A stretch of DNA of 37,951 nt from Pseudomonadota bacterium (lineage in GTDB: Bacteria > Pseudomonadota > Gammaproteobacteria > Acidiferrobacterales > Acidiferrobacteraceae). Shown piece after piece: positions 6,208 through 30,896 of this stretch; the first letter of the stretch is position 1, and every line of letters starts with the position of its first letter. The stretch covers positions 1-37,951 of the forward strand of contig JAKAXM010000022.1 in NCBI GenBank assembly GCA_021816625.1, written 5' to 3'. The notes beneath the pieces are model-generated. The model saw only the letters and a list, made by a program, of their open reading frames with translations. It had not been told where the DNA came from and did not search any database. Position numbers and translations under genes: made by a program.

Positions 6208-7278
6208 TCAGGTGGCTGGCAGCGCACGGGTCGTCGCGGTTTCGAGGCGTGTGCGGTCCGCGGGCCGGCGCGCGAGACGGCGGCTGCGCCAGAGTCCCGC
6301 CGATAGTCCGGCAATCGCCAGGCCTACGCCGGCTGCGGCCGCAAGCGTCCCCCGGTGCAGGGTCGTCCAGACCTGCGGGCTGCGGCGAATCGAGCGGTTG
6401 GTGAAAGGTCCATGGACCGCATGGGGCCCCGGGAGGGGTTTCCAGAGATTGTTCGGGCTATTGGGGTCGGCCCGTTCCGCGGTTTGCTGGGCGCGGTAAC
6501 CAAAGCGCGCCAGATAGTGATCCAGTACGGCCGGGGCGATCTTGTTGGCCAGAATGGCCCCCACGGTCGACGCCCCGACGTCGATCTCCCGGCGGTTGTG
6601 GTGGGCCGCCCAGAGCACCGCCCGGGCCGCCACCTCGGGTTCGTAGATCGGAGGAACCGGTTGAGGTTTATGTTTCATATGGTTCTTAGACCAAGCAAAT
6701 TGTGTCGTATTCATGGCCGGCATTTGGACTACGGTGACGCGCACGCGGCTCTTGTCGTGCAGCAGTTCCGTTCGCAAGGATTCGGTGAAGCCTTCGATGG
6801 CATGCTTGGCCCCGCAATAGGCGGCCTGCAGGGGGATACCGCGATAGGCCAGGGCCGACCCGACCTGGATAATGGCCCCCTGGTCCCGGGGGAGCATGCG
6901 CTTCAAGGCAACCATGGTGCCGTAGACGTAGCCCAAATAGGTGACCTCCGTGACCCGGGCGATCTCCTCGGGCTGGAGGTGTTTTACTGGGGAGAACACC
7001 GATACCATTGCGTTATTGACCCATACCGAGATCGGGCCGAATTCCGCCTCGATGGCCCGTGCTGCGGCTTCGACCTGCTCGAAATCCGAGACGTCGGTGG
7101 GGAGCGCCAGGGCCTGGCCCCCCAGCGATTCAACCTCTCTTTTAGTCGCCTCGAGCGCCTCGCGCCCCCGGGCCAATAAACCGATCTTAGCCCCTTCGTG
7201 GGCAAACGCCCGCGCCACCGCACGTCCGTGGCCCGCGCTGGCGCCGGTAATCACTACGACCTGCTGCTGTTTTGCCAT
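6208..7278 (-). CDS. Short-chain dehydrogenase/reductase with C-terminal membrane anchor
   Basis: The 356 residues begin with a classical SDR Rossmann domain (residues 5-250). The cofactor loop is TGASAGHG (11-18), and R37 after the second strand is compatible with NADP(H). The catalytic residues are S141, Y154 and K158. The usual NNAG is present as NNAM. About 60 residues of Pro/Asn-rich linker then lead to a single hydrophobic helix (about 311-330) and a basic tail, so the enzyme is probably tethered to the inner membrane. An AGGAG ribosome-binding site precedes the start. The substrate cannot be inferred. A promoter-like element shared with the ASRT-poxB operon lies about 270 bases upstream, implying a long leader. 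Confidence 0.88.
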   Translation of the reverse strand: MAKQQQVVVITGASAGHGRAVARAFAHEGAKIGLLARGREALEATKREVESLGGQALALPTDVSDFEQVEAAARAIEAEFGPISVWVNNAMVSVFSPVKHLQPEEIARVTEVTYLGYVYGTMVALKRMLPRDQGAIIQVGSALAYRGIPLQAAYCGAKHAIEGFTESLRTELLHDKSRVRVTVVQMPAMNTTQFAWSKNHMKHKPQPVPPIYEPEVAARAVLWAAHHNRREIDVGASTVGAILANKIAPAVLDHYLARFGYRAQQTAERADPNSPNNLWKPLPGPHAVHGPFTNRSIRRSPQVWTTLHRGTLAAAAGVGLAIAGLSAGLWRSRRLARRPADRTRLETATTRALPAT

Positions 7279-8938: not shown

Positions 8939-9136
8939 TTAATCCCCAAAGGCATGGGGTGGTTGGGAAAAGTCGTTTTTCATGCGGTAGCCCTGTTCTT
9001 TCAGCAAATAGGCGAGATTCAGGGTCGCGCTGCCGAAGCGTTCGGCGTTCTTGATGATGGTGTCGCTCAGCGCATCCAGCTCGTCCCGCGGAAACTTAAG
9101 TAATACGCGTGTTGGTGATTGTTCCAGGATGTCCAT
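8939..9136 (-). CDS. Small hypothetical protein, 65 residues
   Basis: The gene has a strong AAGGAG ribosome-binding site five to six bases before its ATG. The product starts with a short strand-like region (TRVLLKFPRDELDALSD) and continues as amphipathic helix, with no signal peptide or membrane segment. I do not recognise a family. It sits 67 bases downstream of the transporter gene at 9204-10046 on the same strand and ten bases before a second small gene, so a three-gene unit is likely. Its good ribosome-binding site and coupling argue that it is real despite its size. Confidence 0.68.
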   Translation of the reverse strand: MDILEQSPTRVLLKFPRDELDALSDTIIKNAERFGSATLNLAYLLKEQGYRMKNDFSQPPHAFGD

Positions 9137-9203
9137 AGTCGCTCCTTGCGTTGCGTACGTGACGTATAGACAGCGGGCCCATGATGCGGTTCCTCCGGGA
9201 CCG

Positions 9204-10046
9204 TCAATCCTCGGGCGGAACGCCGGCGGTGGCTTGGGCGTGATTCAAGGCCGCAACCAGGATCACGCCGCCCACAACATTGCCGATGAAGGTGGGCAGG
9301 AGAAACCGTCCGGCATAATCCGCCAAGCTCATGCTGCCGCTCAAGACAAGATAGAAGGCCTCGACGGAACCCGCTATGAGATGGGGGAAGCCTGCGATAC
9401 TGATGACATAGGTGAGCAGCATGATAATGACAACGCGCGCGGTCTCGGCGGCCGGCAGCAGCCACACCATCAAGGCCACGAGCCACCCCGCGAATACGGC
9501 CCCAAGGAGCATGGGGCCAAAAGGCCGAATCGCCTTTTCGCTCATGACCGTGAGCGTCTGATGGACCGACGGACTAAAGAGCGACGTGTCGGCAATGGCC
9601 CAGGCAAAGAGCAGCGTGCCCAGGAGATTGGTGACGAGCACCGTCCCCCAGAGCTTCATGACCCTCCCGAATTTGCGCCAGGTGAGCTCCTGCATGAGCG
9701 GCAAGATGGGGGTCAGCGTGTTTTCGGTAAAGAGCTGTTGGCGGCCGAGAACGACGATGATAAAGCCCAGACTGTACCCAAAGCCCGCGACCAGTTTGGC
9801 CCAAGGGCTGTGTGGAAGACCATGACGGAGTATGCCTTCGCCCAGCATCGAAAACCCCATGGAGAGCCCGGCGGCAAGACCCGACCACGCAAGCGCCGCG
9901 GTCGACCGCTGCAGTTCCTGCTCCCCTTCTTCGCGGATGACCTCATGCACGATGCCGACCGAGATCGTTACGCGTTCGCGGGTCTTTTTGAGCTCGTCGC
10001 GATCCAGCTTGATGGTGTTGGGCTTGTTGTCCGGCGATCCGGGCAT
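9204..10046 (-). CDS. Formate/nitrite transporter (FNT) family protein, YfdC-like
   Basis: The 280-residue protein has a charged N-terminal region of about 45 residues followed by six membrane helices, as in the pentameric FNT channels for formate, nitrite, hydrosulfide and similar small anions. The signature QLFTENTLTPILP (about residues 104-116) is typical of the YfdC-like branch. The pore histidine equivalent is in GFPHLIAGS (about H212). In this branch the transported substrate is not established. An AGGAG lies ten bases before the ATG, a slightly long spacing. The extended N-terminus is typical of YfdC rather than FocA. The gene is followed by two small genes of unknown function on the same strand. 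Confidence 0.88.
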   Translation of the reverse strand: MPGSPDNKPNTIKLDRDELKKTRERVTISVGIVHEVIREEGEQELQRSTAALAWSGLAAGLSMGFSMLGEGILRHGLPHSPWAKLVAGFGYSLGFIIVVLGRQQLFTENTLTPILPLMQELTWRKFGRVMKLWGTVLVTNLLGTLLFAWAIADTSLFSPSVHQTLTVMSEKAIRPFGPMLLGAVFAGWLVALMVWLLPAAETARVVIIMLLTYVISIAGFPHLIAGSVEAFYLVLSGSMSLADYAGRFLLPTFIGNVVGGVILVAALNHAQATAGVPPED

Positions 10047-10182
10047 CGAATAAGGACTCCTGCGTGGCGGACGTTCTTTTAAGGAGGACGTAGTCTAGGG
10101 GTGCAGCATGGCGCGCGCATGGGTTCTTTGGGACCCGGCGCGATCGCGCGAACAGACATTCGGTCCCGTGACGCGCAACGAA

Positions 10183-10218
10183 TGGGATGGCCATTCATTG
10201 ATGGGGTGGCGATTCATT
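10183..10218. repeat. Tandem 17-base repeat upstream of the FNT gene
   Basis: TGGGATGGCCATTCATT (10183-10199) and TGGGGTGGCGATTCATT (10202-10218) match at 15 of 17 positions with a 19-base period. They lie about 140-170 bases upstream of the FNT start and could be a pair of regulator half-sites. Confidence 0.5.
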
Positions 10219-10303
10219 TCGACGCGGGGCCGATCGAAGGTGGCGCGTAGGATGGAGCGGGCGCTACGCAGGCGAGACCTCGGCCGAGGGTCCGATCCGA
10301 AGC

Positions 10304-11425
10304 CTAGGTCAGCTCGTAGGCACGCGCATCCGCCTCCTTTACACTTAGACCAAATCCGTGTCCGCCTGAGTCGGGCGTCAGGACGCCCGACTCAGGTTTC
10401 GCGCATCCTTCGAAGAGCATATGCTCGATGCGGGCATGGTCATGAAAATACTCCATATGGCGAATCTGCGCGGCGGCGGCGCATACGGGGAGATGTAAGG
10501 AAGGTGCCGTGTGCGAGGACAACGGGAGGCAACACGATTGACAGAGGGCGTCTATGCGTAGGAACTGGGTAACGCCCCCGCAACGCGTGACGTCGGCCTG
10601 CAGGACGTCTACGCGGGCCTCGTCGATCAGACGCTGGGCATCGAAGAGGTCGCCTATATATTCGCCGGCGGTTACCTCCATAGGCGCCGGGACCTGTTCC
10701 CCGATCAGGCGCAGACCGGCTGTGTCGTCACTCGATACGGGCTCCTCAAACCATGAGACCCCGTACTCGTGGAAGGCGTGCGCGAAGGCGACGGCCTGCT
10801 TGCGGTCATAGGCGCCATTGGCATCAACGAAAAGGCCCGGTGTATCACCGATGGCGCGGCGTGCTATGCGTACCCGTTCGACATCCTTAAGGGGCGTGCG
10901 GCCGACCTTCATTTTCACAGCGCCCATGCCCTGCGTGACCCAGTTCCCAAGTTGTTCGGCAAGCTGCGCCGGCGGATACGAGGTAAAACCCCCGCTGCCG
11001 TACACAGGTACGCTAGCGCGCGCCCGACCCAGGAGGTCCGACAGCGATCTTGCGAGCAGGCGGGCTTTAAGATCCCATAACGCGCAATCGACGGCCGAGA
11101 GGGCTTGGCCGCCGATTCCGGTATGGCCAAGGTTGCGCAGGGCGTCGGCCATGCGCTTCCATGCCGCCTGAATGTCGAGTGCATCGTGGCCCGCAAGTAC
11201 TGGGAATAGGTGATCGTGCATCACCGCAGCCGCGGCCTTCGTGCTATAGGTATACCCAAGCCCTGTGTGGCCACCAGAGCCGACCGCGGCGAGTACGAGC
11301 GTGGTGACGTTCCAGGCAAGTGTGCCATCGGACTCCGGGGTCTCGGTCGGTATACGAAACACCCGGACCGAGGTATGGTCGACAGGGGCCGCCGCCGGGC
11401 GAGCACCTCCCTTAGTCGCGGCCAT
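10304..11425 (-). CDS. Enolase-superfamily protein (mandelate racemase/muconate lactonising enzyme type)
   Basis: I place the start at 11425 (MAATKGGARP), giving 373 residues and a 14-base overlap with the preceding PoxB-like gene. The N-terminal capping domain spans about residues 15-135, and the barrel follows. The catalytic set is complete: the KxK pair K171/K173, metal ligands D201, E227 or E228, and E255, then D278 and H305 as the His-Asp dyad. This pattern is that of sugar-acid dehydratases, racemases and related enzymes, which abstract a proton next to a carboxylate. The substrate is unknown. As the last gene of an ASRT-PoxB-enolase operon it may prepare or clear an acid for the thiamine-dependent oxidase. 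The 3' end contains a striking perfect palindrome. Confidence 0.87.
   Translation of the reverse strand: MAATKGGARPAAAPVDHTSVRVFRIPTETPESDGTLAWNVTTLVLAAVGSGGHTGLGYTYSTKAAAAVMHDHLFPVLAGHDALDIQAAWKRMADALRNLGHTGIGGQALSAVDCALWDLKARLLARSLSDLLGRARASVPVYGSGGFTSYPPAQLAEQLGNWVTQGMGAVKMKVGRTPLKDVERVRIARRAIGDTPGLFVDANGAYDRKQAVAFAHAFHEYGVSWFEEPVSSDDTAGLRLIGEQVPAPMEVTAGEYIGDLFDAQRLIDEARVDVLQADVTRCGGVTQFLRIDALCQSCCLPLSSHTAPSLHLPVCAAAAQIRHMEYFHDHARIEHMLFEGCAKPESGVLTPDSGGHGFGLSVKEADARAYELT
10365..10396. repeat. Perfect 15-bp inverted repeat inside the enolase-like gene
   Basis: CCTGAGTCGGGCGTC (10365-10379) and GACGCCCGACTCAGG (10382-10396) are exact inverted copies separated by two bases. They lie in the coding sequence for residues about 344-354 (PESGVLTPDSG), near the 3' end of the gene. 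Confidence 0.85.
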
Positions 11426-13205
11426 GAGGGACCAGACTTTCCCATTCCTCGTTGAGCGAGGCGCGCATGACCCCGAGCGCATCGACATCGCCTTTGAGCA
11501 GCGCAGAGGTAAAATTCTTGGCCTGCTTTAAGGTGATATGGGGCGGTAGCGGGGGTATGTTGGGATCGGTGTGGGCATCGATGACCACCGGCCGGTCGGC
11601 GGCCAAGGCTTCGTCCCAGGCCGGCCCCACCGCGCTCGCCCGGTCGATAACGAGCCCTGTGAGTCCCAACATCTGGGCGTAGGCGGCATAGGGGAACTCC
11701 GGCAGATTCTGCGAGGCCTCGAACTTGGGATTGCCGGTCAGTACCCGCAACTCCCACGTGACCTGATTGAGATCGCAGTTGTTCAATACGAGAATGATCA
11801 GGCGCGGATCGGCCCACTCCCGCCAATGGCGGGCGATCGTCACCATACCGTTTAGGCCATTCATCTGTATGGCGCCGTCGCCGGTCATGGCGATGACGGG
11901 ACGATCGGGGTAGGCAAGCTTGGCCGCGAACGCGTAGGGCACGGCCGGACCCATGGTGGCCAAGGTCCCTGACAGCGAGGCCTTCATCCCGCGTTTGATC
12001 TTGATGTCTCGGGCGTACCAATTGGCGGCCGAACCCGAATCGCAGGCGAGTATGACGTTACTCGGTAGGCGCGGCGACAATTCCCAGAACACCCGCTGGG
12101 GGTTTATCGGGCGCCCTTCGTTCATGGCGCGGCCTTCCAGGACCTTCCACCATTGACGCACGCCGCTTTCGATCCGGTTGCGCCAAGCGCGGCTTTTCTT
12201 GGGTTTCAACAGAGGCAGTAAGGCACGCAGCGTAGCGACCGAATCGCCGACGAGGTTTAATTCCATCGGATAACGAATGCCGAGCATGCGGCCATCAATA
12301 TCGATCTGGATGCCGCGCGCATGGCCATCCGGGGGCAGAAACTCGCTATAGGGAAAGCTCGACCCGACCATGAGCAGGGTGTCGCATTCTTCCATCATGT
12401 CAAAACTCGGTTTGGTACCCAGGAGCCCAATGGATCCCGTCACAAACGGTAGGTCATCGGGGACGGCGGCCTTCCCAAGAAGGGCCTTGGCTACACCGGC
12501 ACCGAGACGCTCGGCAACGGCGATGACCTCGTCAGTAGCGCCCAGACAACCGGCCCCGACGAGCATGGCGACCCGCTCGCCTTGGTTTAGGATCTCCGCC
12601 GCGCGTTTGATATCAGCCTCTTCCGGGATGACGTGGGGACGGCTGTAGCTTGTCGAGGAATGGATCGTGTTGTGGGCATGGGGCGGCTTCTTGACCGCGC
12701 GCATCTCCTGGACATCGTTTGGCACGATGATGCAGGTCACAGTGCGTTCAGTAAGCGCGATGCGTACAGCCCGATCAATCACATGACGGGTCTGCACCGG
12801 ATTCATCAGGACCTCAACATATTCGCCAGCGACGTCCTTGAAAAGGCTGTGCAGATCTACCTCTTGCTGATAGTGGCCTCCCAGGACCGTACTCGCCGCC
12901 TGCCCGACGATAGCCAGGACCGGCTGATGGTCGAGTTTGGCGTCATAGAGACCGTTTAGGAGATGGATCGCGCCGGGACCCGAGGTCGCGACGCAGCAGC
13001 CGATCTGCCCTGTGTATTTCGCGTGGGCGCAGGCCATGAAGGCAGCGAGCTCCTCATGGCGTGGCTGGATAAACTCGAGACGGTGCTCGGCACGCCCCAT
13101 GGCCCCGAGCAGCCCATTGATGCCGTCCCCCGGATAACCGAAGAACCGGGTAATGCCCCAGGCGCGCAGCCTTTCGAGCATAAAATCTGCCACTGTGTCG
13201 GCCAT
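11412..13205 (-). CDS. PoxB-like thiamine-diphosphate-dependent pyruvate oxidase/dehydrogenase
   Basis: The 597-residue protein belongs to the POX/acetolactate synthase family and has its three domains. The N-terminal PYR domain includes GYPGDGING (residues 23-31) and the catalytic glutamate E51 in RHEELAAF. A central cofactor-binding domain spans about 195-335. The C-terminal PP domain has the thiamine-diphosphate/Mg motif GDG (442-444) ending in NN (475-476). The GYPGDGING signature and CVATSGPGAIHLLNGLYDAK are characteristic of quinone-linked pyruvate dehydrogenase (PoxB) rather than acetolactate synthase. A strong AGGAGG lies six bases before the ATG. It is the middle gene of an operon with an ASRT-family protein and an enolase-superfamily protein, so the true substrate may be a 2-oxo acid other than pyruvate. 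Confidence 0.88.
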   Translation of the reverse strand: MADTVADFMLERLRAWGITRFFGYPGDGINGLLGAMGRAEHRLEFIQPRHEELAAFMACAHAKYTGQIGCCVATSGPGAIHLLNGLYDAKLDHQPVLAIVGQAASTVLGGHYQQEVDLHSLFKDVAGEYVEVLMNPVQTRHVIDRAVRIALTERTVTCIIVPNDVQEMRAVKKPPHAHNTIHSSTSYSRPHVIPEEADIKRAAEILNQGERVAMLVGAGCLGATDEVIAVAERLGAGVAKALLGKAAVPDDLPFVTGSIGLLGTKPSFDMMEECDTLLMVGSSFPYSEFLPPDGHARGIQIDIDGRMLGIRYPMELNLVGDSVATLRALLPLLKPKKSRAWRNRIESGVRQWWKVLEGRAMNEGRPINPQRVFWELSPRLPSNVILACDSGSAANWYARDIKIKRGMKASLSGTLATMGPAVPYAFAAKLAYPDRPVIAMTGDGAIQMNGLNGMVTIARHWREWADPRLIILVLNNCDLNQVTWELRVLTGNPKFEASQNLPEFPYAAYAQMLGLTGLVIDRASAVGPAWDEALAADRPVVIDAHTDPNIPPLPPHITLKQAKNFTSALLKGDVDALGVMRASLNEEWESLVPHGRD

Positions 13206-13240
13206 AACTGTCCTCCTGATGGATGGGGCTTCTCGGTTCC

Positions 13241-13615
13241 TTAACCGCTGTAGGCGATCGTGCTGATGAGAGCGTTCTGAGCCTGGCGCGAGTCGAGCCG
13301 GGTTTGTTGGACGACGATCGGTACGTCTGACTGGATGATGCTGGCATAATCGATGCCGCGCGGGATCATCTCGGGGTCTTTCAGATCATTAAAGCGGATG
13401 TGTCGAGTACGCTTGGAAGCAACCGTGATGCGATACGGTCCCGCCGGGGCGCGATCGGAAAAAAACACTGTGATCTCGACGTGGGCCTCGGTTTCTCCCG
13501 CATTCAATATGCAGACAGATTCATGGCTCGTCATTTCCGGTTCGGGCCCGTGGCTCCAGGCCGGAATATGGCCGTCTGGGAGGGCCCAGCGTGTTCGTCC
13601 GATCGTTGCGCTCAT
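13241..13615 (-). CDS. ASRT-family protein (sensory rhodopsin transducer-like)
   Basis: The 124-residue protein matches the Anabaena sensory rhodopsin transducer family along its length: IGRTRWALPDGHIP near the start, SHESVCILNAGETEAHVEIT in the middle, then FFSDRAPAGPYRITV and IIQSDVPIVVQQTRLDSRQA near the end. The family fold is a small beta-sandwich that forms tetramers and has been proposed to bind small molecules such as sugars; only some members partner with rhodopsins. No rhodopsin gene is present here. It is the first gene of a unit with poxB and an enolase-superfamily gene, which supports a metabolic sensing or binding role. A GGAGGGG ribosome-binding site precedes the ATG and copy B of the bipartite promoter element lies about 45 bases further upstream. 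Confidence 0.85.
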   Translation of the reverse strand: MSATIGRTRWALPDGHIPAWSHGPEPEMTSHESVCILNAGETEAHVEITVFFSDRAPAGPYRITVASKRTRHIRFNDLKDPEMIPRGIDYASIIQSDVPIVVQQTRLDSRQAQNALISTIAYSG

Positions 13616-13658
13616 CGCCGTCCCCTCCTAGGTGGAGATCCCATCACGATTAGCCGGC

Positions 13659-13697
13659 ATGCTACTCCGGCGCCGCGTGGCCTTGATCCGCCTAAGG
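13659..13697 (-). promoter_or_regulatory. Bipartite promoter-like element, copy B
   Basis: On the minus strand it reads CCTTAGGCGGATCAAGGC, then 14 bases, then GTAGCAT, matching copy A at 7550-7588 except for one base. TAGCAT is positioned as a -10 about 40-45 bases upstream of the ASRT start codon. The upstream 18-base box would cover the -35 region. The 14-base spacers of the two copies differ in sequence, which argues that the boxes are conserved by function. Confidence 0.65.
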
Positions 13698-14024
13698 CAA
13701 GAGAGCCGCGGCGCGCGCTTTGCGTCGCGTTCCGGCCTGCGCTACCCTCGCGCCGAGGGCGCTAGCCGTGGCGTCATGACGACGCGGCCCCATAAAGGAT
13801 CATCCGCACAGGGCCTGAAGTCGCCTCAAGGAACGGGCGTTGCGATTAGGGTCGGAAGGGGTGGGGTGATTGCCGCTGGCGTGCGGGCCCGCGGCCTGGC
13901 GCGCGACACTCAGGCAGAGGGGATATGGTATGGCGACACCAGCAGGAAACGACCCCCGAGAGCGGGGGGTGCTAGCGGTGCGGAGATCGCCCGTAAACGT
14001 ACTTGGGCCGCCGGAGGGCACCCC
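13698..14024. other. Divergent spacer between the ASRT operon and patB
   Basis: About 330 bases separate copy B of the bipartite element from the chosen patB start. The patB reading frame remains open across it, but the codons are Arg/Gly-rich and unlike the conserved protein, so I treat it as non-coding. A patB promoter is expected here; I see no clear one. Confidence 0.45.
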
Positions 14025-15179
14025 ATGAGCGTCTTCGACGAGCCGGTCGAGCGCAGGGGAACGGGCAGCGTCAAATGGGATCGTTATCGCGACACGGATA
14101 TCATGCCGCTGTGGGTCGCGGATATGGATTTCAGATCCCCGCCGGCGGTCATTGCCGCCCTTGAGGAGCGTGTGGCGCATGGGGTCTTTGGCTACGGCAA
14201 TGCCCCAGCGGACTTGGCAGATACGCTCATCGCGCATCTCGAGGCGGCGCATGGGTGGGCGGTGCGGCCGGATTGGATCGTCTATCTGCCGGGACTTGTG
14301 ACCGGCATCCATCTCGCCTGCCGGGCGACGGGCACGCCGGGAGACGGCGTCCTGACGCTGACCCCCGTTTACCCGCCGTTTTTGAGCGCCCCGGCGCCAT
14401 CGGGGCGGATCTTACAGTCCGTGCCGCTCGCGCACCCGGCGGGTGGACGCTACACCTTCGATTGGGATGGTCTCGCGCAGGCCGTGACGGCTCGCAGCCG
14501 TCTACTGCTCTTTTGTAATCCGCATAACCCGGTAGGGCGCGTCTACACCCGGGATGAGCTCGAACGGCTTGGCGCCTTTTGCGAACGGCACGACCTCGTG
14601 ATCTGCGCAGACGAGATCCACGCCGGTCTCGTGCTCGATCCTGCGGCCCGCCACGTCTCGATCGCCACCCTGGCGCCCGAGCTCGCCCGGCGCACGATCA
14701 CCTTGCTCGCGCCGAGCAAGACCTACAACATCCCGGGGCTTGGCTTCTCCTTTGCCGTGATCCCGGATCCGGATCTGCGCGCCCGATTCCGGGCGCAGAT
14801 GAAAGGCATCGTGCCCGACGTGAATGTCCTGGGCTTTAGCGCGGGCCTCGCGGCCTATCGGGAGGGGGAACCCTGGCGGCAAGCCCTCATTGCCTATCTG
14901 CGCGCCAATGCCCAGACCGTGGCGCACGCTATCGCCGCTATCCCCGGCCTGTCGGTGAGCCCCGTCGAGGCGACCTATCTCGCCTGGATCGATGCGCGTG
15001 GCCTCGGGGTCGCAAATCCGCAGCGCTTCTGCGAGCAGGCAGGTCTCGGTCTGTCGGACGGTGCGGATTTTGGCGCCCCCGGCTTCCTGCGGCTCAATTT
15101 TGGATGCCAGCGGGCATGGCTCACGCAGGCCTTACGCCGCTTGGAAACCGCCGTGGCGGCGCGGCCGTCTGAGCGCTAG
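14025..15179 (+). CDS. PatB/MalY-type pyridoxal-phosphate C-S lyase (putative cystathionine beta-lyase)
   Basis: I place the start at 14025 (MSVFDEPVERRGTGSVKWDR) because GGAGG lies upstream and the family begins this way; the frame is open 390 bases further upstream without homology. The resulting 384 residues match the family length. Diagnostic segments are PLWVADMDF (28-36), CNPHNPVG (164-171), ADEIHAGL (195-202) and the PLP lysine K232 in LLAPSKTYN. These enzymes cleave C-S bonds of cystathionine or cysteine conjugates, giving a thiol, pyruvate and ammonia. The divergent neighbour is the ASRT-poxB operon, whose oxidase could use pyruvate, but a direct link is speculative. Confidence 0.88.
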   Translation: MSVFDEPVERRGTGSVKWDRYRDTDIMPLWVADMDFRSPPAVIAALEERVAHGVFGYGNAPADLADTLIAHLEAAHGWAVRPDWIVYLPGLVTGIHLACRATGTPGDGVLTLTPVYPPFLSAPAPSGRILQSVPLAHPAGGRYTFDWDGLAQAVTARSRLLLFCNPHNPVGRVYTRDELERLGAFCERHDLVICADEIHAGLVLDPAARHVSIATLAPELARRTITLLAPSKTYNIPGLGFSFAVIPDPDLRARFRAQMKGIVPDVNVLGFSAGLAAYREGEPWRQALIAYLRANAQTVAHAIAAIPGLSVSPVEATYLAWIDARGLGVANPQRFCEQAGLGLSDGADFGAPGFLRLNFGCQRAWLTQALRRLETAVAARPSER

Positions 15180-15560
15180 GGGTGGCGCGTAGGGCCCCGG
15201 AAGGGGCCGGGATCATGGCTCGCGTAGTACCGTAGGTATATTATACAAGATACTAATTATATTATGATAAACGAGATTCGGTTTTTGCGGCCACGCACCC
15301 TTCGTAAGGCCCCGGGCCCCCGCAAGAGGATCACGGCCGCCCTCCAGAGCCATGGGCCGCGGGCGCCTCACTCTTCCACACGAGCGGGCTCACGCCCTTA
15401 CGGCCGTGGCCCCGGGCGCGTCCCCTCTTTGACGGCGCGGGCAGAGCGGGCATCCGTTCCGGCCCGCACCGTCCCGCCCCTGACACGCCGCGTCAGTGTG
15501 ACCGGGCTTACCGGGGACGTCGGGGCATAAGGGCCCCTTGAGCCCCGCAGAGACGCCCGG
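15180..15560. other. Spacer between patB and maf, with an AT-rich patch and a hairpin
   Basis: This region of about 380 bases lies between convergent genes. An unusually AT-rich patch occurs at 15235-15272, including the small palindrome GTATATTATAC (15236-15246). A GC-rich hairpin (CGGGGC 15521-15526 with GCCCCG 15542-15547) lies just after the maf stop and may be its terminator. The open frame 15264-15530 is Arg/Pro-rich and has no ribosome-binding site, so I do not call it a gene. Confidence 0.45.
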
Positions 15561-16152: not shown

Positions 16153-18006
16153 TTACCCGATCTCCACCAAGGCCTCGTCGGGCGTCACGCTGTCACCTTT
16201 TTTGACGTGGATGTTCTTTACGATTCCACGAATGGGGGCCGGAACCTCGTTTTCCATCTTCATGGCCTCGATGACCAGGACCGGGTCCCCGGCCTTCAAT
16301 TCCTGGCCCACACTCACGAGCACATCCACGACGGTACCCGGCATCGCGCTCGTTACATCCCCGGCCTTGCGGGCCTTGGGACGGCGCGAGGCCGAGACCG
16401 GGATGTTGGGCTGCGGGGCGCCGACCGGGTCACGCGGCTCGCTGCTCACATCGGTCGGCACTATGCCCATGGTCTCCACCATGATCTCTTCGGGCATCCC
16501 GTCGACATAGACGTAGAAGGGCCGACGCTCCTCGCTCTTATGGCCGGCGCCCCGAATCTTGATGTTGTAGGTTTCGCCGTGCATGGTCACATTGAAATCG
16601 GTCGGTGCCAGATAGCAGGGCGCTGCCTGCGCCTCCGGCGGCGGCAGGAGCTCCTCGGGCCGCAGGGTACCGGCGGCGCGCTCTTCCAGGAATTGCCGAC
16701 CGATCTCAGGGAACATCGCATACGTGAGGACGTCTTCCTCGCTGCGGGCCAGTCCGCCGATCTCGGCGCGCAATTTGGCCATCTCGGGTTTCAGATCATC
16801 GGCGGGGCGGTGCGCGATCACGGGCTGCTGGCCGATCGCAAGCCGGCGAACCCCTTCGTCGACCACGCCTGGTGGCGTACCGTAACGGCCTTGCAGGTAG
16901 AGCTTGACCTCGTTTGTGATGCTTTTGTAACGCTGGCCCGTGAGCACATTCAAGACGGCCTGCGTGCCCACGATCTGCGAGGTGGGCGTCACAAGGGGTG
17001 GATATCCGAGGTCGGCGCGTACGCGCGGGATCTCGAGCAGGACCTCATCCATGCGCGCGAGCGCACCTTGTTCTTTAAGCTGGTTGGCGAGATTGGAGAT
17101 CATGCCGCCCGGGACTTGATTGACATGCACGCGGCTATCCACACCCGTATGTTCGCTTTCGAATTGGTGATAGCGCTTACGCACCGTTCGGAAATACGCG
17201 TTCACGCGCTCCAGCCGTTCGAGGTCTAGCCCGGTATCGTAGGGTGTTCCGCGCAGGCCCGCCACAAGGCTTTCTGTGGGGGGATGGCTTGTGCCCTCAC
17301 CAAAGGCCGAGAGTGCGGTATCGATCAAATAACAACCGCTCTCGATCGCTTTCCATTGGCAGATGGCGGCGAGCCCCGAGGTCGAGTGCGAATGCAGATG
17401 CAAAGGGATCTTCACGGCCTTCACGAGGGCCTTCACGAGGGTTGCGGTTTTGGTGGGGGTCAAAAGGCCCGCCATGTCCTTGATCGCTATGGTATGGCAG
17501 CCCATGGCTTCAAGTTCCCGCCCCATGGCCACGAACGCCGCGACGTTGTGGACGGGACTCGTGGTGTAGCAGATCGTCCCTTCCGCGTGCTTGCCATTTT
17601 GAAGGACCGCTTCGATTGCGACGCGCAGATTGCGCATGTCGTTCATGGCATCGAAAATGCGAAAGACGTCCACGCCATTGTCGGCGGCCTTGGCTACGAA
17701 GGCGCGCACGACATCGTCGGCATAATGGCGATAACCGAGCAGGTTTTGGCCGCGCAGTAGCATCTGGAGCCTGGTACGCGGCAGCGCCGCCTTCAGTAGC
17801 CGCAGCCGTTCCCACGGATCTTCCTTAAGATAGCGCAGACAGGCATCGAAGGTGGCACCGCCCCAGGCCTCGAGCGACCAGTACCCGATCGCGTCCAGGT
17901 CCGGGCACGCCGGCAGCATATCCTCCGTGCGCAGGCGGGTGGCGATCAGTGATTGATGGGCGTCCCGCAGGATGACGTCCGTGATTCGTACCGGTGTCTT
18001 TGCCAC
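16153..18006 (-). CDS. pycB: Pyruvate carboxylase subunit B / oxaloacetate decarboxylase alpha subunit-like
   Basis: The 617 residues comprise the carboxyltransferase barrel (about 1-300, with the metal-binding RDAHQSL at 14-20, AIKDMAGL, and HLHSHSTSG), a conserved helical domain (to about 470) and a C-terminal biotin-carrier domain with EAMKM (580-584; biotinylated K583). The sequence alone cannot separate OadA from PycB. The adjacent biotin carboxylase gene and the absence of oadB/oadG in the window favour the two-subunit pyruvate carboxylase, which converts pyruvate, bicarbonate and ATP to oxaloacetate. This is an anaplerotic role suitable for an autotroph. The gene follows pycA by 116 bases. 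Confidence 0.88.
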   Translation of the reverse strand: MAKTPVRITDVILRDAHQSLIATRLRTEDMLPACPDLDAIGYWSLEAWGGATFDACLRYLKEDPWERLRLLKAALPRTRLQMLLRGQNLLGYRHYADDVVRAFVAKAADNGVDVFRIFDAMNDMRNLRVAIEAVLQNGKHAEGTICYTTSPVHNVAAFVAMGRELEAMGCHTIAIKDMAGLLTPTKTATLVKALVKAVKIPLHLHSHSTSGLAAICQWKAIESGCYLIDTALSAFGEGTSHPPTESLVAGLRGTPYDTGLDLERLERVNAYFRTVRKRYHQFESEHTGVDSRVHVNQVPGGMISNLANQLKEQGALARMDEVLLEIPRVRADLGYPPLVTPTSQIVGTQAVLNVLTGQRYKSITNEVKLYLQGRYGTPPGVVDEGVRRLAIGQQPVIAHRPADDLKPEMAKLRAEIGGLARSEEDVLTYAMFPEIGRQFLEERAAGTLRPEELLPPPEAQAAPCYLAPTDFNVTMHGETYNIKIRGAGHKSEERRPFYVYVDGMPEEIMVETMGIVPTDVSSEPRDPVGAPQPNIPVSASRRPKARKAGDVTSAMPGTVVDVLVSVGQELKAGDPVLVIEAMKMENEVPAPIRGIVKNIHVKKGDSVTPDEALVEIG

Positions 18007-18122
18007 GATTATCTACCTATCGTCAAGAGTGCGTGATTATACCTGCCGATGCGGCGTCCGTCTCGCTCAGATCGCCCATAGACCCGCGGACCGGCCTGCG
18101 CCCGGTTGGGCGCGGCAGGTGC

Positions 18123-19541
18123 TTACAGTCCGTGATGGGCGGCGATGGCTGCCGCGATCGCCGCTGCCAGATGCGATGTCGGCCGGCGCACCGAATAATT
18201 GATGAGCTCGGGGTGATCCTCGACAAAGGCGGTGTTAAAAAGGCCGCTTTGGAATTCGGCGGTCTTTAGGATCTCCAGGTGGTAGGGGATCGTCGTCTTG
18301 ACACCCGAGACACCCATGTCGAGCAGTGCCCGCCGGGCCCGCGCCAAGGCCTTCTCCCAGGATAACGCCCAGATCGTAAGTTTGGCGCACATCGAATCGT
18401 AATACGGGGGAAACTCATAGCCCGTATAGATGGCGGCGTCGGTGCGTACGCCTGGGCCGCCAGGTGAGTAGTAGCGGGTAATGCGGCCGAAGTTTGGCAA
18501 AAAGTCGTTCTTCGGATCCTCGGCGTTGATGCGAAATTGCAGGGCAAAGCCGCGTCTTTGAATGTCGTTTTGCGTAAATGACAAGGGTTTTCCGCTTGCG
18601 ATCAGTATCTGTTCTTGAACGATGTCGACCCCGGTGATCTGTTCCGTGACCGTGTGCTCCACCTGGAGGCGGGTGTTCATTTCCATGAAATAGAAACGCT
18701 GCTCCTGATCGAACAGAAATTCGACGGTCCCCGCATTCTCATAGCCGACCGCTTGTGCCGCGCGCACGGCAAGACCGCACACTAAAGCACGCTGCTCATC
18801 GGTAAGTTGCGGCGAGGGGGCAATTTCAAGCAACTTTTGGTGGCGGCGCTGGATAGAGCAGTCGCGCTCGAAGAGATGAACGACGTTGCCGAAGCGGTCG
18901 CCTAAGATCTGGACCTCGATATGCCGCGGGTTCACTATGCACTTTTCGAGGAAGACCTCGGCGGCGCCAAAGGCCTTAGTGGCCTCGGACACTACACGCT
19001 CGTAGTGGCGGCGCAGTTCTTCCTCGGAGTCGCAGCGGCGAATACCACGCCCGCCGCCGCCCGATGTGGCCTTCAGCATGACCGGGTAACCGATGGCTTG
19101 GGCCGCGGCCGCAGCCTCGTCTTGACTTGCGACATTGCCATCGCTTCCCGGCACGACCGGAAGCCCCGCGGCGATCGCCGCCGCGCGCGCAAGCGTCTTG
19201 TCGCCCATCTGCCGGATGACCTGAGGTGACGGGCCTATGAAGATCAGGCCGCGCCGCGCGCAGATCTCGGCGAGCTCCGGGTTTTCCGACAGGAAACCAT
19301 AGCCCGGATGGATGGCGTCACAGCCGGCGCTCAAGGCAACCGTAGCCATACGATGGGCATTGAGATAGCCGCCTACCGGATCCGGCCCCAGATTGTAGGC
19401 TTCGCTCGCCTTTTTGACATGCAGGGCATGCCGGTCGGCGTCTGTGTACACGGCCACCGACTCGATACCCATCTCGGCGCAGGCGCGCACGATTCGCACC
19501 GCGATTTCGCCACGGTTTGCCACCAATATCTTCTTGATCAC
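18123..19541 (-). CDS. pycA: Biotin carboxylase subunit (pyruvate carboxylase subunit A / AccC-like)
   Basis: The start is a GTG at 19541 (MIKKILVANRGEIAVRI) with a GGAG six bases upstream. The 472 residues form the ATP-grasp biotin carboxylase: N-terminal domain with NRGEIAVR, glycine-rich loop KATSGGGGRGI (about 157-167), metal-binding EMNTRLQVEHTVTE with the catalytic arginine, and a C-terminal domain. It carboxylates biotin on the partner carrier. Because it is next to pycB rather than accB, it is most likely the pyruvate carboxylase subunit, but AccC activity cannot be excluded. A TACAAT on the minus strand (19588-19583) may be its -10 element. Confidence 0.88.
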   Translation of the reverse strand: MIKKILVANRGEIAVRIVRACAEMGIESVAVYTDADRHALHVKKASEAYNLGPDPVGGYLNAHRMATVALSAGCDAIHPGYGFLSENPELAEICARRGLIFIGPSPQVIRQMGDKTLARAAAIAAGLPVVPGSDGNVASQDEAAAAAQAIGYPVMLKATSGGGGRGIRRCDSEEELRRHYERVVSEATKAFGAAEVFLEKCIVNPRHIEVQILGDRFGNVVHLFERDCSIQRRHQKLLEIAPSPQLTDEQRALVCGLAVRAAQAVGYENAGTVEFLFDQEQRFYFMEMNTRLQVEHTVTEQITGVDIVQEQILIASGKPLSFTQNDIQRRGFALQFRINAEDPKNDFLPNFGRITRYYSPGGPGVRTDAAIYTGYEFPPYYDSMCAKLTIWALSWEKALARARRALLDMGVSGVKTTIPYHLEILKTAEFQSGLFNTAFVEDHPELINYSVRRPTSHLAAAIAAAIAAHHGL

Positions 19542-24547: not shown

Positions 24548-24598
24548 CGCCACCTGCCGTTGCGCGCAGCGGATACTGAAGGCCCCAGGGGGATCTCC

Positions 24599-25840
24599 AT
24601 GAGCAAGAGGCGTGTCGTAATCACAGGACTTGGGGCAGTCACGCCTCTTGGGCTCAATGTGGCGGACAATTGGCGGCGGATCATGGCAGGCGAGAGCGGT
24701 ATCGGCCCCGTGACGCAGTTCGATGCCACAGGGTTTCCGTCGACCATCGCAGGAGAGGTCCGGGGGTTCGATACGTCGGCGTTTTTGTCCGAGAAAGAGG
24801 CGCGCAAGATGGATCGCTTCATTCAACTCGGTATGGCCGCCGGCGTCGAGGCGATAAAGGATGCCGGAATCACCGTGACCGAAGAGAATGCCGAGCGGAT
24901 CGGATGCTACATAGGTTCGGGGATCGGTGGCGTCCACACCATTGAAGAAACTACTCGTCAGTATCTCGAGAAAGGCGCGCGGCGCATATCGCCTTTCTAT
25001 ATTCCCATGAGCATCATTAACATGATATCAGGGAATCTATCGATTCTTTACGGCTTTAAGGGGCCGAATCTGGCAGTCGTGACGGCGTGCACGACCTCGA
25101 CGCATGCGATCGGCGAGGCTGGGCGCATCATCGAATACGGGGATGCCGACGTCATGGTGGCAGGTGGCGCCGAAGCCGCTGTCACGCCAACCTCCATGGC
25201 GGGCTTTGGCAACGCCCGCGCCTTGAGTACGCGTAACGACGCCCCTACAGCGGCAAGCCGCCCCTGGGATCGCGACCGGGACGGTTTCGTGCTGAGCGAG
25301 GGTGGGGCGGTCGTGGTCCTTGAGGAATTCGAACATGCCCGGGCGCGAGGCGCACGTATCTACGCCGAATTGGTCGGTTTCGGTATGAGCGGCGACGCCC
25401 ACCACATGACGAGCCCGCCGGACGATGGCGATGGGGCGGCGCGCTGCATGCGCTATGCCTTGCGTAACGCGCGTATCGACATAGGCGAGGTCTCCTACAT
25501 CAACGCGCACGGCACGTCGACCCCGCCGGGCGACAAGGCCGAAACCCGTGCCATCAAGACAGTCTTTGGCGAGCGCGCAAAAGGGCTCGCAGTAAGTTCC
25601 ACGAAGTCCATGACAGGCCATCTGTTAGGGGCCGCCGGGGCCATCGAAGCGATCTACACGGCGCTTGCGATCCATGAGCAGGTGGCACCGCCCACGATCA
25701 ATCTCGATAACCCCGACGAAGACTGTGACCTGGACTACGTCCCGCATACGCCGCGCGAGATGCCGATCCGCTATGCGCTCTCGAATTCCTTTGGGTTTGG
25801 CGGGACTAACGGGACGCTCGTCCTGGGTCGCCTGCCGTAA
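24599..25840 (+). CDS. fabF: Beta-ketoacyl-ACP synthase II
   Basis: The 413-residue condensing enzyme has catalytic C164 in VTACTTSTHA, H304 in NAHGTSTPP and H341 in MTGHLLGAAGA. The start at 24599 (MSKRRVVITGLGAVTPLG) matches the family and has AGGGGG upstream; a longer open frame from 24560 lacks support. In Gammaproteobacteria acpP-fabF is often followed by pabC; here pabB intervenes. Confidence 0.97.
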   Translation: MSKRRVVITGLGAVTPLGLNVADNWRRIMAGESGIGPVTQFDATGFPSTIAGEVRGFDTSAFLSEKEARKMDRFIQLGMAAGVEAIKDAGITVTEENAERIGCYIGSGIGGVHTIEETTRQYLEKGARRISPFYIPMSIINMISGNLSILYGFKGPNLAVVTACTTSTHAIGEAGRIIEYGDADVMVAGGAEAAVTPTSMAGFGNARALSTRNDAPTAASRPWDRDRDGFVLSEGGAVVVLEEFEHARARGARIYAELVGFGMSGDAHHMTSPPDDGDGAARCMRYALRNARIDIGEVSYINAHGTSTPPGDKAETRAIKTVFGERAKGLAVSSTKSMTGHLLGAAGAIEAIYTALAIHEQVAPPTINLDNPDEDCDLDYVPHTPREMPIRYALSNSFGFGGTNGTLVLGRLP

Positions 25841-25846
25841 CGACCC

Positions 25847-27172
25847 ATGCTGGGGCCCGGCATCGTGCAGGTGGCCCCGCAAGGCCTGAATGATCTTCTT
25901 GCGGTGCACGAGCGCATGCCCGATGCCTATCCGCACCTGCTGACCAGCACCACGGCAAGCGGCGGGCGCTACGATATCCTGTTTGCCTATCCCGAGCCTC
26001 CGCACATCCTCCCAGGCGACGCGACTGCCGCGGATGCCGTGGGTTTTTGGGCGCATTTGGATCAGGTCACGCGCCCGAACCCGCCACCCCGAGAGGACCC
26101 CCTACCGTTTCATTACGGGTATTTTCTCTATCTCGGTTATGAGCTCATGGCGACCTTCGAGCCGCGTGTGGCCTTGCCCCGGCCGGTGACCTTGCCGCTT
26201 GCCTGGTTGCAGTTTTGTCCGGGTGCCGTTATTTATGATCGCCGGCAGGAGGCGACCTATATCACGGGGCGCGATACGCAGCTCGTGGCTACAGTCGCGC
26301 GCGATTTGGCAGCCGTCGCGCCGGCTGGCAGTGTGCGCCCGATTCCCGTCGCGGGCCTGATCGAAGACCCAGAGTCCGATTTTTTGGCAGGGGTCGCAAC
26401 CATCCGAGACTATATCGCGGCCGGAGATATCTTCCAGGCCAACCTCTCGCGCCGCTATCGCGCGGCCCTGGCCCCGGAAACGTCGCCTGCCGCAGTCTTT
26501 CGGGCGCTGAGCGCCGCGAATCCCGCTGCCCTGTCGGCGCTCGCTACGCTCGGCACTACGGTGCTCGCAAGCGCCTCCCCGGAACGCTTGCTCGCGCGTC
26601 GTGGGGGGCGTGTGACGACCCAGCCCATCGCCGGGACTGCTGGCCGTCTGGCCGAGGCGAGTGCCGATGTCCGGGCGCGCACGGCCTTACAGGAAGACCC
26701 CAAGGAGCGCGCCGAGCATGTAATGCTGGTCGATCTGGAGCGCAACGATCTCGGCCGCGTGTGCGCGGCGGGCAGTGTCCGGGTCCGTGATTTTATGAGG
26801 ATCGAGACCTTGGCGACGGTCCACCATCTGGTTTCGGACGTGGAAGGGGAACTGCGCCCGGGGATCTCGACTTCGGACCTCATTAAAGCCGTCTTTCCGG
26901 GGGGCTCGATTACCGGTTGCCCGAAGATCCGCTGCATGCAGATCCTGGCTGCGCTCGAGGGCGCGCCGCGCGAGGCCTATACGGGCAGTATCGGTTATGT
27001 GAACGAATGGGGTGCGCTCGATCTCAATATCTTGATTCGGACGCTCGCACTGCGCGGGGGTGAGCTGGAGTTCCGGGTTGGGGCAGGCATTGTGGCTGAC
27101 TCCTGTCCGACGCGTGAACTGCAAGAGACGCGCGCCAAAGCAGCCGGCATGCTGCGGGCGCTTGCGCTATGA
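25847..27172 (+). CDS. pabB: Aminodeoxychorismate synthase component I (PabB-like)
   Basis: The 441-residue chorismate-utilising enzyme would convert chorismate to 4-amino-4-deoxychorismate for folate synthesis, using ammonia from a glutaminase (PabA, not in the window). PabB-like features are GYFLYLGYEL (91-100) and GDIFQANLSRRY (about 193-204). The C-terminal GAGIVADSCPTRELQETRAKA contains the conserved chorismate-binding glutamates. Motif 260-264 is PIAGT, whereas E. coli-type PabB has PIKGT with an active-site lysine; PIAGT is usual in anthranilate synthase. The following pabC supports the PabB role. It lies between fabF and pabC with a four-base overlap at its end. Confidence 0.85.
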   Translation: MLGPGIVQVAPQGLNDLLAVHERMPDAYPHLLTSTTASGGRYDILFAYPEPPHILPGDATAADAVGFWAHLDQVTRPNPPPREDPLPFHYGYFLYLGYELMATFEPRVALPRPVTLPLAWLQFCPGAVIYDRRQEATYITGRDTQLVATVARDLAAVAPAGSVRPIPVAGLIEDPESDFLAGVATIRDYIAAGDIFQANLSRRYRAALAPETSPAAVFRALSAANPAALSALATLGTTVLASASPERLLARRGGRVTTQPIAGTAGRLAEASADVRARTALQEDPKERAEHVMLVDLERNDLGRVCAAGSVRVRDFMRIETLATVHHLVSDVEGELRPGISTSDLIKAVFPGGSITGCPKIRCMQILAALEGAPREAYTGSIGYVNEWGALDLNILIRTLALRGGELEFRVGAGIVADSCPTRELQETRAKAAGMLRALAL

Positions 27173-27990
27173 TCCCGCTTGCTACATTGATCAATGGCGA
27201 TAGCCCGGGGCAGATCACGGCAGCCAACCGGGGCTTGCAGTATGGTGACGGGCTCTTTGAGACGGTAGCCGTCGTCGACGGCCGGCCGCTTTTATGGGAT
27301 GCGCATATGGCGCGTTTGCAACGCGACGCCCACCGGCTCGGATTTGATCCGCCCCCCGAAGAGCGGCTCACCTACGAGGTTGCGGCCCTCGCCCGCGTCC
27401 ACCCGCAGGCGGTATTGAAGATCGTCGTGGTGCGCGCCGCCCAAGGGCGGGGCTACCGGGGGCGCACGCGAGAAAGTGAGCGTGTCGTGACGGCGTGGCC
27501 GTGGCCTACGCTCGCGCCGGCCGGGGCGCTCGATATCGCTTGGTGCGCCACACCGCTTGCCCGTCAACCGCGGCTCGCCGGGATGAAGCATCTCAATCGC
27601 CTGGAGCAGGTCTTGGCCCAGAATGAGCTTGATCCCGCCTGTTGGGAGGGTTTGATGCAAGACACGGCAGGTTGGGTCATTGAAGGCACCATGAGCAACG
27701 TCTTTATCGTAGCCGATGGAGTGCTGGCAACACCCCGGCTGGATCAGGCGGGGGTGGCTGGGGTGATGCGCGATCAGGTCCTGCATCGCGCCCGGGAACG
27801 CGGTATTCCCGTCATAGTCGAGGCTCTCAGTCGCGAACGGGTGCTGGCCGCCGATGAGGTCTTTCTCACCAATTCCCTGATGGGGGTGCGCACCGTGCGC
27901 AGCCTGCCGGGACGTGTCTATGGCCCGCCGGTACTCGGGCCTCTGATCGGCAAGGAGCTGATGGAGCGGGGCGATGCGCGCGCTCCTTAG
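27169..27990 (+). CDS. pabC: Aminodeoxychorismate lyase
   Basis: The 273-residue class IV PLP enzyme releases pyruvate from aminodeoxychorismate to give 4-aminobenzoate. YGDGLFETV (25-33), the PLP lysine K140 in GMKHLNRLEQ and the cofactor-phosphate region EGTMSNVF are diagnostic. The ATG overlaps the pabB stop by four bases and its own 3' end overlaps mltG by 17 bases. Closely related aminotransferases share these motifs, but the position next to pabB and mltG makes PabC most likely. Confidence 0.93.
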   Translation: MIPLATLINGDSPGQITAANRGLQYGDGLFETVAVVDGRPLLWDAHMARLQRDAHRLGFDPPPEERLTYEVAALARVHPQAVLKIVVVRAAQGRGYRGRTRESERVVTAWPWPTLAPAGALDIAWCATPLARQPRLAGMKHLNRLEQVLAQNELDPACWEGLMQDTAGWVIEGTMSNVFIVADGVLATPRLDQAGVAGVMRDQVLHRARERGIPVIVEALSRERVLAADEVFLTNSLMGVRTVRSLPGRVYGPPVLGPLIGKELMERGDARAP

Positions 27991-30508: not shown

Positions 30509-30513
30509 GGACC

Positions 30514-30894: not shown

Positions 30895-30896
30895 GG

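Follow-up and report, generated by a model that had tools for sequence, protein, structure and literature searches.

ASRT, the transducer protein paired with the sensory rhodopsin of Anabaena, has homologues in many genomes that lack such a rhodopsin (PMC3198991, accessible text). De Souza, Iyer and Aravind (2009; PMC2739507) reported ASRT genes beside genes for a pyruvate decarboxylase/oxidase and a sugar-acid dehydratase/racemase, and proposed that intracellular ASRT binds a sugar or a related metabolite. We analyzed a stretch of 37,951 nucleotides (the window; contig JAKAXM010000022.1 of assembly GCA_021816625.1, a gammaproteobacterium of the Acidiferrobacteraceae), where the same three gene types are adjacent on the minus strand, ASRT being followed by a PoxB-like thiamine-diphosphate (TPP) enzyme and then an enolase-type enzyme (Table 1), and we make the same proposal for ASRT. 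A sequence-only reading of the window had called the set an unrecognised module for oxidation of 2-oxo acids or sugar acids. Its observation is confirmed and its interpretation partly supported; the set is not unrecognised, because De Souza et al. reported its gene types side by side, and this kind of neighborhood has been known since 2009. What is new, and is not described in the accessible part of that paper, is the exchange of a triad around a GMC oxidoreductase for an FAD/Fe-S protein, a split arrangement with the triad encoded in trans, and a natural knock-out in which ASRT and the dehydratase gene decay together. Our best reading, to which we assign a probability of about 0.5, is that the trio may be the split remainder of a widespread cassette for membrane-linked sugar-acid oxidation, with ASRT as its metabolite-binding partner. 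Among the matches listed in our search of open-licence PMC papers, we found no experimental test of the ASRT gene set since the 2009 proposal and, by titles and abstract starts, no paper describing the sugar-acid pathway or cassette.

The short spacing and overlap of the gene row proved real. The longest open reading frame (ORF) of the enolase-type gene (10304-11488) overlaps the TPP gene by 77 nt, and the overlap is 14 nt if translation begins at ATG 11425, which is probably the start rather than 11488 because the alignment with structure 3cyj begins at ORF residue 36. An AGGAGG stretch stands ahead of the start codon of the ASRT gene as it does ahead of that of the TPP gene. A pattern scan of positions 9000-15300 returned 2 promoter-like sites (1.9 in shuffles) and 8 terminator-like sites (4.7 in shuffles, sd 2.1), with no site of either kind in the ASRT-TPP gap.

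Table 1. Coordinates of the features discussed; locations without a prefix are window positions, and our numbers for genomes and loci begin with G and L.
Feature	Location	Strand	Remarks
ASRT-family protein (PF07100), leading the gene set	13241..13615	-	124 aa; PF07100 E 1.2e-54
Spacer, ASRT stop to TPP ATG	13206..13240	-	35 nt; AGGAGG ahead of TPP ATG
PoxB-like TPP enzyme, PRK08273/NF006129 family	11412..13205	-	597 aa; NF006129 1030.6 bits
Enolase-superfamily enzyme (mandelate racemase subgroup type)	10304..11425	-	373 aa from ATG 11425; PF13378 3.9e-52, PF02746 1.5e-13
Formate/nitrite-transporter (FNT) family gene, downstream	9204..10046	-	PF01226 2e-51
Short-chain dehydrogenase/reductase (SDR), PRK07109 subfamily	6208..7278	-	NF005495 485.4 bits, cut-off 264
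PatB-family C-S lyase, divergent neighbor	14034..15179	+	TIGR04350 461.7 bits, match from ORF residue 135
Triad: HYP, subunit 3, GMC	G000:C49 21132-24533		Other contig than window; GMC search in genus
HYP	L158:6133-7167 (= G000:C49 21132-22166); L089:5704-6708		Membrane protein of ~330 aa
ASRT-lactone-oxidase sandwiches	L030:2920-4897; L038:10001-12053; L039:10001-11925; L086:9995-12026; L075:9980-12125		

At other loci, the TPP and enolase genes are surrounded by a triad consisting of a GMC oxidoreductase, a gluconate-2-dehydrogenase-subunit-3 protein and a His-rich membrane protein, here called HYP. The alternative to the triad is a fused FAD/Fe-S protein that resembles the D-2-hydroxyglutarate dehydrogenase YdiJ and GlcD (448.4 bits, cut-off 1350). 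Further members are a PRK07109-type SDR and often a GH15 glucoamylase or other glucan hydrolases, and an SMP-30 gene lies in one enolase-bearing locus. Among 22 loci with the enolase gene (>40% identity), GMC was present in 10, the FAD/Fe-S protein in 8, both in none and neither in 4, all four from the window's genus. Over 56 TPP loci, a dehydrogenase was encoded at 16 of the 20 with the enolase gene and at 5 of the 36 lacking it (Fisher P = 1.4e-6, although loci that are related are not independent; two of the five are weak, L138 at 27% identity and L121 as a 336-nt piece). By gene content, the triad and the FAD/Fe-S protein are interchangeable in the cassette. On annotated plasmids the cassette is complete with ASRT in Nitrobacter (stretch without SDR and GH15), Caballeronia and one Deinococcus; a Croceicoccus plasmid has it with ASRT and without the enolase gene, and in a second Deinococcus the TPP gene was not detected.

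The window's own genome (G000, completeness 99.14%) encodes the triad on another contig, in the order found in Nitrobacter and Caballeronia, and its GMC protein is 73% identical to that of the Nitrobacter cassette. In G005, a congener assembled as a single contig, the ASRT-operon locus and the triad are ~220 kb apart. Like membrane gluconate 2-dehydrogenase and the FAD-dependent glucose and fructose dehydrogenases, the G000 triad combines a GMC flavoprotein with a PF13618 small subunit, the two-subunit makeup of the gluconate 2-dehydrogenase complex; unlike them, its third protein is HYP, in which no CxxCH of a cytochrome c subunit was found. HYP has no Pfam or NCBIfam match, carries an internal repeat (two occurrences of the EHxRG/LHFRG and GFHxY motifs) and keeps four His invariant in 17 of 17 aligned rows, two of which repeat others (the alignment kept L055, L056 and L063, and L055 and L056 repeat L019 and L033). 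HYP is a candidate new haem-b membrane anchor for GMC dehydrogenases; its fold model was unusable (pLDDT 40.8 with two sequences). A YdiJ-like substitute was sought in seven genomes of the genus and gave partial matches only (E 6e-21 or weaker, at most 43% over short stretches), which we read as other FAD-linked oxidases and Fe-S proteins.

The genus, sampled by G000 and 13 further genomes, holds a natural knock-out of this arrangement. The triad GMC is present in 3 of the 14 genomes (G000, G005 and G011), and an intact enolase gene in the same three only; ASRT occurs in these and in G008 and G009, and the TPP gene in G000, G001, G005, G006 (frameshifted), G008, G009 and G011. G009, which the TPP tree places as sister to G005 (SH-aLRT 99), lacks the triad at the PrkA-linked site, where ~8.6 kb of G005 face ~58 bp between flanks that match on both sides; the missing ~8.6 kb comprise the triad and DNA unmatched in G011 or G000. 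Loss in G009 is likelier than gain, since G000 and G011 carry the triad at the same site. The enolase gene of G009 is frameshifted. Its ASRT gene is still an open frame, but with changes at S30 and N38, two residues that all of the remaining 52 rows (of 53) retain; position 35 is not Cys in it, a state shared with the intact G005 and G011. Between G005 and G009, dN/dS was 0.97 for ASRT and 0.70 for the enolase gene, against 0.05 for TPP, 0.07 for FNT, 0.03 for SDR and 0.11 for PatB, and nonsynonymous/synonymous changes differed strongly between ASRT (55.8/18.2) and TPP (23.5/119.5; Fisher P = 1.7e-17). Between G000, G005 and G011, which retain an intact enolase gene and triad, ASRT is under purifying selection. 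ASRT in G009 evolves neutrally, and the TPP enzyme stays constrained. It looks as if ASRT became dispensable once the dehydratase and the dehydrogenase were gone, even though the adjoining oxidase was kept, and the joint decay of ASRT and the enolase gene where the triad is absent suggests that ASRT belongs with the enolase/dehydrogenase branch and not with the TPP oxidase. A frameshifted TPP gene was also seen in a congener without ASRT and the enolase gene (G006, L096:6703-8492), with its FNT and SDR neighbors kept.

The sequence-only reading had staked itself beforehand on a neighborhood conserved across genomes, and such conservation was found. A protein scan of named genomes gave 28 ASRT loci (up to 10 kb fetched on each side, six stretches being <15 kb), with the TPP gene in 8, the enolase gene in 7 and both in 6; the 8 include L020 (= G011, in the window's genus), L022, cut by a contig end, and L015, whose TPP gene scores 667.9 bits, below the family cut-off of 724. 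A rough binomial estimate, taking 20 kb out of a genome of 4 Mb, puts the chance of ASRT and TPP co-locating in 8 of 28 loci at ~1e-12, even at one copy per genome. The pairing occurs in six phyla, plasmid records included (Pseudomonadota, Nitrospirota, Gemmatimonadota, Thermodesulfobacteriota, Acidobacteriota and Deinococcota), and the arrangement of De Souza et al., with ASRT, TPP oxidase and MR/MLE genes side by side, was met in the window and at other loci. Close same-strand adjacency, measured across loci as the distance between tblastn match ends (38 nt in the window), was seen in the window's genus, one Nitrospirota genome and two roseobacters (28-49 nt in G005, G008, G011, G009, L014, L019 and L033). 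In an even draw of 349 Pseudomonadota genomes, the TPP family was found in 22 at E <= 1e-180 and ASRT in 4. Loci L001-L006, L020, L040-L066 and L099-L118 repeat other loci or genomes and were removed before the marker table and the two trees were made and the 22 and 56 loci counted, L020 being kept in the count of 28; the dropped block also took the TPP loci L058-L063, not all of which are strict repeats and some of which lie away from their own genome's ASRT (L063 is a second TPP locus of the L026 genome).

The notion of a sugar-acid oxidation module stands in part. The wider gene content elsewhere fits it; the trio as a closed functional unit was rejected, the TPP gene being separable from ASRT and the enolase gene and mostly found alone. 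On the TPP tree, enolase-positive enzymes are not one clade (14 changes compared with a shuffled mean of 16.7, at least 8 of them forced by starred branches), so the pairing of the enolase gene with the TPP gene has arisen or broken up repeatedly, and we claim no single origin. In Flavipsychrobacter (L097 and L023; G398, contig 19), ASRT is separated by ~12 kb from the TPP, enolase and FAD/Fe-S genes, a distance slightly beyond the counted stretch. At L083, L080 and L082, a TPP gene without the enolase gene stands near Mn-catalase, ferritin-like, general-stress, phosphoketolase or glycogen genes, and these neighbors suggest a second role for the TPP enzyme family.

The TPP enzyme of the window belongs to the NF006129/PRK08273 equivalog family (1030.6 bits, cut-off 724) and scores below the cut-off of the PoxB model NF006591 (393.6 bits, cut-off 792). 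Its nearest solved relative is E. coli PoxB, pyruvate:ubiquinone oxidoreductase (3ey9, E 7e-92), with which it shares the three TPP-enzyme domains in an alignment over residues 1-576. Unlike PoxB, it has in the active-site segment a Gln at position 481 (Gln in 48 of 56 loci), aligned with a Phe that we take to be the residue facing the substrate in pyruvate oxidases; Gln481 is compatible with a predicted substrate more polar than pyruvate. The enolase-type enzyme has the N and C domains of MR_MLE and is of the mandelate-racemase type within the enolase superfamily. Each of K171, K173, D201, E227/E228, E255, D278 and H305 is present in at least 21 of the 22 aligned rows, and this set (KxK, three acidic metal ligands, Asp-His pair) is presumably that of mandelate-racemase-type acid-sugar dehydratases. 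None of the named acid-sugar dehydratase models of NCBIfam was reached (talarate/galactarate, gluconate/galactonate, arabinonate and others; the best was TalGalacDh, 210.2 against 500), and identity with a named dehydratase or with PoxB was rejected on these scores. The closest solved structure, 3cyj (E 1.2e-111), which we take to come from Rubrobacter xylanophilus, is to our knowledge a protein whose function is not known, and gives no function to transfer; among the open-licence PMC papers searched, the single one that mentions 3CYJ deals with a matching algorithm.

The window ASRT is a member of PF07100 (183.8 bits, cut-off 25) and carries SHESVCILN and W10, corresponding to the SHEshChhN signature and first-strand Trp by which the accessible text of De Souza et al. 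(2009; PMC2739507) marks the family. It is 62% identical to Anabaena ASRT over the aligned part, its structural relatives being 2ii7 (Anabaena ASRT, E 6.5e-55) and 1nc7 (TM1070 of Thermotoga, E 2.9e-16), and its AlphaFold2 monomer model (pLDDT 80) matches 2ii8 at Z 16.6. Over 53 rows, W10 is kept in 53, N38 and S30 in 52, H31 in 49 and C35 in 42. Beyond ASRT and TM1070, the fold search returned weak matches no higher than the background stated for the tool: a carbohydrate-binding module led at Z 6.7, followed by a mixture of carbohydrate-binding and unrelated sandwiches. Nothing was concluded from them about function. Unlike Anabaena ASRT, this close relative has metabolic neighbors and a genome without a rhodopsin: PF01036 was unmatched in G000, as it was in 33 of the 36 ASRT genomes examined, G000 included, and was present in three (one cyanobacterium, L021, and two archaea, L027 and L038). 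The remark of the sequence-only reading that the operon lacks a rhodopsin thus holds genome-wide, and the locus falls outside the photosensory system of the Anabaena type. Nostoc/Calothrix copies (L016-L018) are 69-70% identical to the window's ASRT, and PF01036 was not found in those three cyanobacteria.

Other settings of ASRT were also seen. In archaea, a Bacteroidota genome and Sinorhizobium, a gene like D-arabinono-1,4-lactone oxidase is sandwiched between two ASRT genes, and the 4 of 53 ASRT copies without the signature His (L075.2, L091.1, L028.1 and L039.2) all lie in stretches with a lactone-oxidase-like gene. On a Klebsiella pneumoniae plasmid (L087:4085-10369, one of six Klebsiella records matched), ASRT is accompanied by genes for a sugar porter and an SDR and by a mandelate-racemase-family gene that is just 29% identical to the enolase-type gene of the window.

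From these data we infer the substrate, the order of reactions and the mechanism of ASRT as follows. An aldonate derived from glucan or glucose would be oxidised by the membrane-linked dehydrogenase, with electrons passing to the quinone pool; the acid would be dehydrated or epimerised by the enolase-type enzyme, and the resulting 2-oxo acid would undergo oxidative decarboxylation by the PoxB-like TPP enzyme. ASRT is a small beta-sandwich whose polar cleft is conserved; it would bind a sugar acid or lactone of the route, sensing or handling the metabolite for the dehydratase/dehydrogenase step rather than for the TPP enzyme; this role is proposed because of the cleft, as given in the accessible part of De Souza et al. 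(2009; PMC2739507), and of the decay in G009. The two dehydrogenase types would catalyze a shared reaction. Oxidation of an aldonate at C2 is the simplest common step, because one of them resembles D-2-hydroxyacid dehydrogenases and the other gluconate 2-dehydrogenase, and it gives a 2-oxo acid that would feed a TPP enzyme decarboxylating 2-oxo acids oxidatively. We consider a functional link between ASRT, the enolase gene and the dehydrogenase highly likely and a sugar acid the probable substrate; that ASRT is a ligand-binding partner, and not an enzyme or a transcription factor, we hold to be evenly balanced, and the sequence of C2 oxidation followed by oxidative decarboxylation is tentative. 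A more far-reaching version is improbable, namely that the cassette performs iterative oxidative chain-shortening of aldonic acids, the membrane dehydrogenase oxidising C2 and TPP-dependent oxidative decarboxylation yielding the next shorter acid. ASRT would there be a dedicated sugar-acid/lactone handler, possibly catalytic (if so, in lactone opening or mutarotation), whose rhodopsin partner in Anabaena was recruited later, and the ASRT-flanked D-arabinono-1,4-lactone oxidase would be its second lactone setting.

Several results weigh against the split-cassette reading. No cassette gene (TPP, enolase, GMC or FAD/Fe-S) lies in the stretch of 19 of the 28 ASRT loci, so ASRT has other settings, and of the 22 TPP loci of the even draw 18 lack the enolase gene and 20 lack ASRT (the 4 with the enolase gene and the 2 with ASRT each count G000 as one). 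A label test on the TPP tree, with 8 independent pairs, gave no significant association of ASRT with the enolase gene (median P = 0.25): the two went together in a mean of 2.8 pairs and in opposite ways in 0.0. The decay was seen in a single lineage, represented by one four-contig assembly. G008 (85% complete) has ASRT and TPP, its contig ending inside TPP, and its enolase gene and GMC were not found; the Croceicoccus plasmid (L088) keeps ASRT and GMC without the enolase gene, and Roseovarius (L033) keeps them with a short enolase-like stretch only. C35, a predicted ligand residue, is replaced in G005 and G011 although their gene sets are intact. The best solved relatives of the triad GMC are glucose dehydrogenases (6a2u/8hdd, E about 2e-50) and also fructose dehydrogenases, a set that does not single out the carbon oxidised. 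Some plasmid TPP genes sit among general-stress genes, and a crude 12-mer test revealed no upstream motif common to the ASRT and triad operons above six shuffles. Separately, the enolase match of Roseovarius spongiae (L033:12207-12305) spans 33 residues right after TPP, unlike Sedimentitalea (L019), at a locus that retains ASRT, TPP, GMC, subunit 3, HYP, SDR and GH15.

On reaction order the main rival is an Entner-Doudoroff-like route, in which glucose would be oxidised at C1 by the triad and turned into gluconate with the help of a lactonase, the enolase-type enzyme would act as a gluconate-type dehydratase to form 2-keto-3-deoxygluconate, and the TPP enzyme would do no more than oxidise pyruvate to acetate. 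The similarity of GMC to glucose dehydrogenases is in its favor, as are the TPP-adjacent SMP-30/gluconolactonase genes of L070 and L071 and the GH15 genes of several cassettes. Replacement of the triad in 8 of 22 loci by a YdiJ/GlcD-like D-2-hydroxyacid dehydrogenase type, however, fits C2 and not C1, and the Gln in place of the PoxB Phe and the score below the PoxB cut-off speak against pyruvate; we regard this route as possible but rather unlikely. Somewhat less probable is that the TPP enzyme is a stand-alone stress-type oxidase, which ASRT and the enolase-type gene adjoin by convenience. Such a view would account for the 18 TPP loci without the enolase gene, for the Pantoea and Bosea plasmids whose TPP genes neighbor Mn-catalase, ferritin-like, general-stress or glycogen genes, and for the retention of TPP while ASRT and the enolase gene decay, but not for the 28-49 nt same-strand spacing or for the occurrence of ASRT with TPP in six phyla, mostly together with the enolase gene and a dehydrogenase.

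We give equally low credence to ASRT as a DNA-binding regulator of its own operon with the ligand as signal, as proposed for Anabaena ASRT, which in the accessible text of PMC8660804 binds and loops DNA and raises reporter expression. The DNA contacts given there (R109, Q110 and N113), taken as R110, Q111 and N114 here, are kept in 49, 46 and 39 of 53 rows, but their conservation is not specific to loci with the operon; the same text gives a dissociation constant of about 10 uM and looping of random sequence too, and the two operons lack the common upstream motif sought above. It is very improbable that the set is left over from a light-sensing system whose rhodopsin was lost: the identity to Anabaena ASRT would suit a relic, but purifying selection acts on ASRT among G000, G005 and G011, and the 33 genomes without PF01036 include three cyanobacteria (L016-L018). 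We rejected this explanation on the lack of a PF01036 match in G000.

Among the neighbors of the gene set, the FNT gene is also downstream in G005, G011, G009 and G006; it is a conserved neighbor within the genus and at most a candidate pathway member. SDRs similar to that of the window occur at L012-L015, L074, L084 and L088, and that of the L012 cassette is of the same subfamily (NF005495, 453.9 bits); the window SDR is probably associated with the gene set. The PatB gene is conserved in the genus and was judged to lie outside it. Elsewhere in the window, positions 16153-19541 hold genes for a biotin carboxylase and a PYC_OADA/biotin-lipoyl subunit, a two-subunit pyruvate-carboxylase-type pair, and 24560-31670 an ordinary gene row (ketoacyl synthase, chorismate-binding enzyme, class IV aminotransferase, YceG, DNA polymerase III delta' and TatD).

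ASRT is named for a light sensor, yet nearly all of the ASRT genomes examined (33 of 36) have no rhodopsin. The decay pattern makes its ordinary function testable, the partner to look for being the enolase-type enzyme and the membrane dehydrogenase, not the adjoining oxidase, and the wider cassette points to an uncharacterised respiratory sugar-acid route in such dissimilar bacteria as Nitrobacter, Caballeronia and Deinococcus.

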